DNA from: a bacterium
GTDB taxonomy: Bacteria > Vulcanimicrobiota > Xenobia > Xenobiales > JADMJV01
Reading direction: 5' to 3'
Length of the DNA stretch: 37,204 nt
Assembly (NCBI GenBank): GCA_030149525.1
Contig: JASBRJ010000068.1
Location: 1-37,204 of the forward strand
The position numbers and the translations under genes are program-made. This document shows, piece by piece, positions 10,691 through 13,577 of this stretch; the first letter of the stretch is position 1; each line of letters opens with the position of its first letter. The notes below the pieces were generated by a model. The model worked only from the letters and a program-made list of their open reading frames with translations, made no database searches and was not told the origin of the DNA.

Positions 10691-12064
10691 ATGCGTAGCA
10701 AACTCTTACTCTCCATCTTTTTGTTGGCACAGCTCAGCCTGGCCGAACCTCTCCAAACTGTTATCACCGACCCCGACGGTGATGGGCCTTGGCCTGCCGC
10801 CGAACGGGTGGAGGGAAGACTGATTCTGGACTTTCAAGGAAGCCCGTCCGAGGTGGAGATGAATGTTTGGGGAAAGTTATTCGGCCTTTCTCCCAAGGTC
10901 ATTCTGCCCACTCACGGCCTGGCCATGGTGGATGTCGCGGAGAGCGAATTGCCGGAGCTACTGTCTCGGTTGAAACGAGACCCTATGATTCAGCAGGTGT
11001 CCCCCGATTACGTGGTCCACGTGTCGGGATTCGAGCCCGCGATAGAGGCTGAGACGAGAGGCGAAACAGCGGCCAAATTTCCCAACGACCCCCTGTTTAA
11101 GCATCAGTGGCACCACAAGATGGTCGGGGCCTCCAAGGCTTGGAAGAAGGCCAAAGGAGAAGGAGTTACCGTGGCCATCCTGGACACCGGAATAGCTTAC
11201 GCCGAGAAAGGCGTGGTGAGGCCGGTAGAAGATTTGGCGCAGACCAAAATCTTAGAGGGGTATGACTTTATTAACGACGACCCCCTGGCTGTAGACGATC
11301 TCGGATATGGTACCCACCTAGCCGGTACCGTAGCTCAATCCACTAACAACAAGCTCGGCGCAGCAGGACTTGCCTTCGAGTCGAGGCTGATGCCGGTCAA
11401 GGTTCTGAACCACGAGGGCCAGGGTACCTTCGGCGGAATCGCTGCTGGAATTCGGTTTGCAGCCGATAACGGGGCCGACGTTTTGGTAATGGGCTTTGGT
11501 TCCACGGCCGATTCCATGTTGTTGGAGGAGGCGGTAGAATACGCCCACGCAAAAGGCTGTGTGCTAGTTGCTGCCGTAGGTGTTGCAGGCGATGATACTC
11601 CCAACTTTCCAGCCCACTATGACCAAGTCATCGGGGTTGGAGCCGTTGGTGACGGAGGCAAGATAACCGACTACTCAAGTCGTGGCGCCGACATTATGGG
11701 GCCCGGCGGTGAGGCTCAAGTGGGTCTTGGAATTCTCCAGAACGCTCTTCATGTTCGCAATCCGAAGCGGAGCGGATATCTATGGTTTGCCGGAACCAAT
11801 TGCGCAGCGGCTCACGTTGGAGCCGCCGCGGCCCTCGTCATCTCGAGCGGGGTGAAGGAGCCGGTCGCAGTCAGAGAGATTCTCCTTTCTACAGCGCGAA
11901 AGAAGAAGGACAAGAAAGCCTATGGAGCGGGTATTGTGCAAGCCGACAAAGCGGTGAAGAAGGCTCATCAGACTGTTGCCGAGTCGAAAGAGTCCGCATT
12001 TGAATGGCTTGCTCTGCTCTTACTGGCTCTGCTGAGCTTGCCGGCGTTTATCAAGCGAAAATAG
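10691..12064 (+). CDS. Subtilisin-like (S8) protein, predicted catalytically dead, membrane-anchored
   Basis: The 457-residue product starts at ATG 10691, giving a good signal peptide (RSKLLLSIFLLAQLSLA); an upstream ATG at 10646 would bury it. Residues ~35-110 resemble the I9 inhibitor-type propeptide (GRLILDF...DPMIQQVSPDYVVHV). The subtilase domain follows: Asp165 in AILDTGI and His209 in GYGTHLAGT are conserved. The nucleophile motif GTSMA reads GTNCA, so the catalytic Ser is Asn370, and the oxyanion-hole Asn of AAGN is Val298 (AAVGV). A conventional serine protease mechanism is therefore not expected; Cys371 lies next to the lost Ser. The C-terminus has a single membrane helix (WLALLLLALLSLPAF) and basic tail. 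A role as a binding pseudoprotease or scaffold at the cell surface is an inference. Confidence 0.88.
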   Translation: MRSKLLLSIFLLAQLSLAEPLQTVITDPDGDGPWPAAERVEGRLILDFQGSPSEVEMNVWGKLFGLSPKVILPTHGLAMVDVAESELPELLSRLKRDPMIQQVSPDYVVHVSGFEPAIEAETRGETAAKFPNDPLFKHQWHHKMVGASKAWKKAKGEGVTVAILDTGIAYAEKGVVRPVEDLAQTKILEGYDFINDDPLAVDDLGYGTHLAGTVAQSTNNKLGAAGLAFESRLMPVKVLNHEGQGTFGGIAAGIRFAADNGADVLVMGFGSTADSMLLEEAVEYAHAKGCVLVAAVGVAGDDTPNFPAHYDQVIGVGAVGDGGKITDYSSRGADIMGPGGEAQVGLGILQNALHVRNPKRSGYLWFAGTNCAAAHVGAAAALVISSGVKEPVAVREILLSTARKKKDKKAYGAGIVQADKAVKKAHQTVAESKESAFEWLALLLLALLSLPAFIKRK

Positions 12065-12732: not shown

Positions 12733-13212
12733 GTGGAACCAACGAGACTCATCGAGCAGAACTATGAAGCGCACCGCGAGCGGTTAGTGGGCTTTTGTTT
12801 GAGAATGCTGGGCGACCGTGCCCAGGCCGAAGACCTGGCGCAAGACGTCTTTGTGAAGTCGCTGGAGGAGGGGCGAAGCGAGGTCGGGTGGCTTTTCACC
12901 TGCGCTCGCAATCGTTGTTTGGACCAGCTTCGTCGCCGAGGAGTCTGGAGCAAGGTCTCAGACGCCTTGAGTCGAGGGGTTGCTTGGATGCCGGGATTTG
13001 AGAAGGAATTGGTAGACAACGACCTTGGATTCAAAGTTCTCCAGGGGCTCAGTCCCAAGCTGCGCTCTCTTCTTCTCCTAAAAACCTACGCCGGATTTTC
13101 CTATGAGGAGCTGGCCGGTATTTACGAGACGACTCCCGAGGCTATTGGTGTGATGTTGAGCCGGGCGCGCAAGAAGGCGAGAGTGGCCTGGAAGAAGGAG
13201 ACGGGGAAATGA
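12733..13212 (+). CDS. ECF-type RNA polymerase sigma factor
   Basis: The 159-residue product has both ECF sigma domains. Region 2 is at residues ~15-70 (LVGFCLRMLGDRAQAEDLAQDVFVKS, WLFTCARNRCLDQLRR), which binds the core enzyme and the -10 element. Region 4 is at ~100-150 (LSPKLRSLLLLKTYAGFSYEELA, then the helix-turn-helix TTPEAIGVMLSRARKKAR), for -35 recognition. The start is GTG 12733. It overlaps the next gene, a zinc-finger anti-sigma factor, by four bases (ATGA), the classical arrangement in which the membrane anti-sigma protein holds the sigma factor until a stress signal. The region 2-4 linker is short. Confidence 0.92.
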   Translation: MEPTRLIEQNYEAHRERLVGFCLRMLGDRAQAEDLAQDVFVKSLEEGRSEVGWLFTCARNRCLDQLRRRGVWSKVSDALSRGVAWMPGFEKELVDNDLGFKVLQGLSPKLRSLLLLKTYAGFSYEELAGIYETTPEAIGVMLSRARKKARVAWKKETGK

Positions 13213-13577
13213 AAAGCTGTCCTGATGAAGTGGTTTTGTCTCGGTATTTCGATGGTGAGGAGGTGGGGGAGGCGGCAAATCACGTCATGTCCTGTTTACA
13301 GTGTCAGCAGTATCTTAAGGATCTTGAAGGCTTAGATGCCGTTCTATCTTCAGAACCCTCGAAGCTTGTTTCACGTCGCCGAGGCGACCGACGCTGGGTC
13401 CTGGCTGCTGCGACTCTTCTGCTCTCCACGGGGTTGTTTTGGCGGGGCCTTTACCGTGTGTCTCCTCCCGAACGGGTGCAAACCTCCTCGGGAAAAAGCT
13501 ACTCGGTGTCGGTGAGTAACGGTGTTCTACTGAGTTTGGAGATCGACGGTGAGTCGGTGGTGAGGAATCAGAAATGA
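13209..13577 (+). CDS. Membrane anti-sigma factor with zinc-binding zf-HC2-like domain
   Basis: The 122-residue product begins four bases inside the sigma gene. Residues 1-40 show the anti-sigma zinc-finger pattern: Cys4, DGE, then His25-xxx-Cys29-xx-Cys32 (HVMSCLQC). One membrane helix follows (WVLAAATLLLSTGLFWRGLY, ~64-84), then a short extracytoplasmic beta-rich tail (SYSVSVSNGVLLSLEIDGESV). By family knowledge the cytoplasmic HC2 domain binds and inhibits the cognate sigma factor at 12733-13212. The extracytoplasmic part is only about 40 residues, so the signal may be sensed with help from the next gene product. Confidence 0.88.
   Translation: MKSCPDEVVLSRYFDGEEVGEAANHVMSCLQCQQYLKDLEGLDAVLSSEPSKLVSRRRGDRRWVLAAATLLLSTGLFWRGLYRVSPPERVQTSSGKSYSVSVSNGVLLSLEIDGESVVRNQK

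Follow-up and report, generated by a model that had tools for sequence, protein, structure and literature searches.

The gene located at positions 10691 to 12064 (+ strand) of the window, a 37,204-nucleotide stretch that corresponds to one whole contig (C46) of the 8.27 Mb genome, assembled in 398 contigs, of an uncultured Candidatus Eremiobacterota bacterium (G000), encodes a 457-residue protein, here P0001, with the fold of an S8 subtilase and a predicted inactive catalytic site. We consider it probable that P0001 is an exported, C-terminally membrane-anchored S8 pseudoprotease whose propeptide stays in place and whose role is that of a non-catalytic binding module. The reading frame is intact, as the initial annotation stated. 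Residues 156-414 (11156 to 11932, + strand) form the S8 domain, which covers the full Pfam Peptidase_S8 model (PF00082, model positions 1-288) with 124.6 bits and shows an rmsd of 1.7-1.8 Å to thermitase. Using the AlphaFold model of P0001 (mean pLDDT 89.2, pTM 0.89), Foldseek retrieved mostly unprocessed pro-subtilisins among its top matches, with E values down to 1e-28, including Pro-Tk-subtilisin S324A mutants and unautoprocessed pro-subtilisin E. Both the full-length Pfam match and the Foldseek results place P0001 in the subtilase fold.

The S8 domain is flanked by segments that point to export and membrane tethering. By inspection, residues 1-19 (MRSKLLLSIFLLAQLSLAE; 10691 to 10747, + strand) correspond to a Sec-type signal peptide, and the orthologues described below have the same start. 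A subtilisin-type propeptide spans about residues 37-115 (10799 to 11035, + strand). It is delineated by alignment with related enzymes carrying a DUF5942 domain (S8-DUF5942 enzymes, see below), among them one with a Fervidolysin_NPro-like match that is weak and under the cut-off, and by the strand-helix pattern of the model; moreover, the best Foldseek matches are pro-forms with the propeptide attached. At the C-terminal end, hydropathy indicates a single membrane helix at about residues 435-454, followed by KRK (11993 to 12052, + strand), within a model helix covering residues 418-456. This hydrophobic segment is the only one at the C-terminus of P0001 and is weakly hydrophobic in two orthologues. 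Thus, the propeptide and the C-terminal anchor noted initially were both recovered, with the addition of a signal peptide. From these features, we infer that P0001 is exported and tethered to the outer face of the membrane, the topology being a prediction.

Active-site residues were mapped by profile alignment of P0001 to subtilisin BPN', the reference sequence having been matched to PDB entries. The catalytic Asp32 corresponds to Asp165 (11183 to 11185, + strand), which is kept as previously reported. The catalytic His was also thought to be kept, as His209 (11315 to 11317, + strand). In subtilisins, the catalytic residue is well established to be His64, the first His of HGTH (PROSITE subtilase-His motif); His209 aligns with His67, the non-catalytic second His of this motif, and the position of His64 is occupied by Tyr206 (TAT, 11306 to 11308, + strand). 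The oxyanion Asn155 is replaced by Val298 (11582 to 11584, + strand) and the nucleophile Ser221-Met222 pair by Asn370-Cys371 (11798 to 11803, + strand), in agreement with the GTNCA motif and the AAT codon at 11798-11800 described at the outset. In addition, V266-M-G268 (11486 to 11494, + strand) replaces the substrate-binding strand containing N123 and S125 (N123 to V266, S125 to G268), and P225 corresponds to A374. Of the catalytic triad, only the Asp remains; neither the Asp-His-Ser triad nor the oxyanion Asn of an active S8A enzyme is present. A sequencing error is unlikely. The Ser and Met codons, TCG or TCC and ATG in the orthologues, read AAT and TGC in P0001, so that at least five base changes would have to be read errors, besides those at Y206 and V298.

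Three complete orthologues of the same length (L039, L040, and L041), 41-44% identical to P0001, come from a sister genus within the same family. Of a fourth one, the first part was identified in G005:C692, where the contig ends inside the gene; the same O-methyltransferase-like gene lies next to it. In the three complete proteins, the relevant motifs read GQGTH or GQGSH at the His site, IAATGV at the oxyanion site, and GTSMA at the nucleophile site; the catalytic His is thus replaced by Gln and the oxyanion Asn by Val, and the nucleophile Ser is retained. In a tree of 48 sequences, P0001 and these orthologues form a clade (support 100/99) whose neighbours are full D-H-N-S enzymes. Since the grouping survives removal of the columns of five active-site motifs (99/96), the idea that it is an artefact of the trait columns was rejected. 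The closest relatives in the named collection are the Candidatus Eremiobacterota MAGs ACE_ERE1 and SCN18_25 and the isolate SZAS-1 EREM-KAN-1; no relative was found in viral contigs.

The initial annotation anticipated a clade sharing N370 and V298. V298 is indeed common to the clade, as is the loss of His at position 206, but N370 is unique to the P0001 genome. Close relatives with a canonical GTS motif, which had been expected to argue against the pseudoenzyme reading, do exist, since the orthologues have this motif. It would however restore no activity there, because these proteins have neither a His to act as base nor an oxyanion Asn. With Gln in place of His and Val in place of the oxyanion Asn in the orthologues, the whole clade is predicted to be dead as a protease. 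Correcting the identity of the catalytic His therefore shifts the reading from the loss of a nucleophile and an oxyanion residue in one protein to a clade predicted to be inactive as a whole. The clade-wide losses comprise the His, the oxyanion Asn, and the equivalents of N123, S125, and P225; the Ser to Asn and Met to Cys changes are private to the P0001 genome. As read from this distribution, the His and the oxyanion Asn were lost first and the Ser-to-Asn change came later.

In the tree, the active sequences closest to the clade are S8-DUF5942 membrane proteases from the same phylum (e.g., G000:C93, G003:C11, and G006:C561). Like P0001, they are predicted to be exported and membrane-associated, and identity is about 40-44% over the propeptide and the S8 domain. 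They keep D-H-N-S, whereas the dead clade lacks H and N (and P0001 also S), and their C-terminal DUF5942 is polytopic whereas the dead clade has one short C-terminal hydrophobic segment. DUF5942 was not found in P0001 or in the two orthologues examined, which places P0001 outside the S8-DUF5942 group. Within the family, active paralogues carry DUF5942 in five of the six genomes. Because of the tree position and of this co-occurrence, we infer that the dead clade arose by duplication of an S8-DUF5942 gene. At the level of the phylum, DUF5942 occurs in 20 of 58 genomes, once in each (e.g., G006:C561, G026:C60, and G000:C93), and lies beside or is fused to an S8 domain wherever compared. This suggests that S8-DUF5942 is a conserved uncharacterised membrane protease of the phylum; a literature search covering DUF5942 and reviews of S8 pseudoenzymes returned nothing.

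It may be asked whether P0001 is instead a decaying gene, with a function recently lost in its genome and an intact frame that merely reflects a lag. The Ser loss, private to this genome, is in line with such a view, as is the long terminal branch of P0001 (1.4, versus about 0.8-0.9 for the orthologues), which leaves some room for late relaxation. Moreover, no orthologue was found in G002, so that some relatives may do without the gene. Nevertheless, the P0001 frame runs free of stops over 457 codons, its identity to the orthologues being about 42%, and its GC content by codon position resembles that of neighbouring genes. The distribution of changes was examined at 87 aligned positions that are near-invariant in active relatives, 31 in active-site motifs and 56 elsewhere. 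P0001 is changed at 14 of the 31 active-site positions and at seven of the 56 others (Fisher p=0.0013), the latter number being no higher than in the orthologues (7, 7, and 8 of 56); its losses are thus local rather than diffuse. Finally, the orthologues also lack the His and the oxyanion Asn, yet the NG86 dN/dS values among the three complete ones are 0.116, 0.131, and 0.140, figures that describe constraint on the orthologues and not on the P0001 branch, pairs with P0001 being saturated (ML dS about 19-20) and left out. For the G001/G004 pair, dN/dS is 0.116 for the orthologue versus 0.050 for the active paralogue. It follows from the sequences that the orthologues are under purifying selection after a predicted loss of catalysis. 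Decay is accordingly judged unlikely, and a retained non-proteolytic function, already preferred in the initial annotation, is supported by a clade that lacks the His and the oxyanion Asn and whose other members are under purifying selection. P0001 itself has the sequence characters of an S8 pseudoprotease, with catalytic residues lost and the fold and constraint kept, constraint being measured on the orthologues.

Altered or residual catalysis is a much less probable explanation. Cys371 could act as a nucleophile in P0001, as had been envisaged, or the Ser retained in the orthologues could support substrate-assisted cleavage with a substrate His as base. In its favour, Asp165 is kept in P0001 and GTSMA in the orthologues, and subtilisin that lacks His64 is able to cleave certain substrates that themselves contribute a histidine. 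However, Cys371 lies one residue off the nucleophile position and is Met in all orthologues; the His at the base position and the oxyanion Asn are absent, the S125 and N123 equivalents are replaced, and P0001 has no Ser left for a substrate-assisted route. Cys371-based chemistry in P0001 is thus unsupported and very unlikely.

By analogy with CspC and with the non-proteolytic role of mycosins (see below), the most probable function of P0001 is binding or scaffolding at the membrane. It can be proposed that an S8-DUF5942 gene was duplicated in one Eremiobacterota (Xenobia-like) family, giving rise to a small clade from which the polytopic DUF5942 part disappeared together with the catalytic His and the oxyanion Asn, and that the P0001 lineage then lost the nucleophile Ser as well. 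Because self-cleavage requires the triad, the propeptide would stay uncleaved and attached, as in CspC, and would fill the old substrate cleft. P0001 would then have become a stable binding module devoid of catalysis, located at the outer face of the membrane and most likely engaged in protein-protein contacts with a partner in the envelope, for which it would serve as scaffold, regulator, or decoy; the active S8-DUF5942 paralogue is a guess at this partner. The more specific proposal, that the pseudoprotease evolved from the phylum's S8-DUF5942 protease through staged residue loss (His and Asn, later Ser) and now regulates this protease or its substrates, is only tentative, and we would rather bet against it. 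Comparison of the gene neighbourhoods in the P0001 and orthologue genomes revealed no synteny and indicated no partner.

In the window, the gene upstream of P0001 (6037-10092, + strand) encodes a 1351-residue lipoprotein-like surface protein with Big_2 (bacterial Ig-like) domains. Directly after the P0001 stop codon (12065, + strand) begins an ORF of 206 residues with a CxxC zinc-ribbon-like end. Next on the same strand come genes for an ECF sigma factor (12733-13212) and a putative anti-sigma factor (13209-13577). As no homologue of the 206-residue ORF was found in the 18 relatives searched, it gives no functional clue.

With 56 Pfam matches over its 8.27 Mb, the G000 genome is unusually rich in S8 subtilases, and nearly all of the full-length ones have a canonical active site. 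P0001 is the only full-length S8 protein of this genome lacking His, Asn, and Ser together (about 38 aligned). Two other loci, L131 (G000:C206:42000-45500; ORF 1458-1991, reverse-strand count) and L134 (G000:C155:13500-16500; ORF 967-1548, reverse-strand count), encode proteins of 178 and 194 residues, 43% identical to each other, that resemble miniature subtilases in which the middle of the domain is missing. On visual inspection, their triad is entirely replaced (DTG by GDG/SDG, HGTH by EGTH/NGTH, GTS by GTG/GSG), and they may represent a second pseudo-subtilase family in G000. The S8 homologue L120 (G000:C202:41500-45500) reads HGTY in the His motif and GAS in the Ser motif and retains the catalytic His, Asn, and Ser. 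An S8 relative from Thermoleophilaceae (L066) has STSAAAA for GTSMAxP as its nucleophile motif and keeps D, H, and N.

To our knowledge, few bacterial subtilase pseudoproteases have a known role, the Csp proteins of Clostridioides difficile being the worked example. The clade described here would be an independent case: its catalytic residues were lost in stages, there is evidence of selection after the predicted loss of catalysis, and the genomes that carry it also contain a clear set of active relatives. In CspC, the triad positions are occupied by D105, T170, and G485, the prodomain is uncleaved and bound, and the role is non-catalytic (PMC6636752). CspC and CspA thus resemble P0001 in keeping the Asp and replacing the His and Ser. 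Unlike them, P0001 is membrane-anchored, lies outside any sporulation operon, and has no jelly-roll insertion, since an S8 domain confined to residues 156-414 leaves no room for 130 residues; its origin would be independent. Its NCBIfam scores, 19.1 against a cut-off of 675 for CspC and 18.5 against 1250 for CspBA, likewise set it apart from the Csp proteins. In mycobacteria, the mycosins (MycP) of type VII secretion are likewise membrane-anchored subtilases and have an essential role, complex stabilisation, that does not require proteolysis (PMC5082899). They are active proteases, whereas P0001 is predicted to be inactive and no type VII secretion system was found in its genome. That P0001 is itself a mycosin-like secretion component is hardly credible: the T7SS mycosin model TIGR03921 is its best NCBIfam match and the layout (signal peptide, S8 domain, single C-terminal helix) is common to both, but 145.4 bits is far under the cut-off of 278.75, the EccC model reaches only 39 bits in the genome with no match above its cut-off, and the nearest relatives in the tree are the S8-DUF5942 proteases; membership was rejected on the first two grounds. 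Among active S8A enzymes, fervidolysin, thermitase, and AK.1 protease share the fold of P0001, whose propeptide is of the fervidolysin type; unlike P0001, they have an active triad and oxyanion hole and no membrane anchor. Finally, the inactive rhomboids regulate their own systems, as is proposed here, tentatively, for P0001 with respect to S8-DUF5942.
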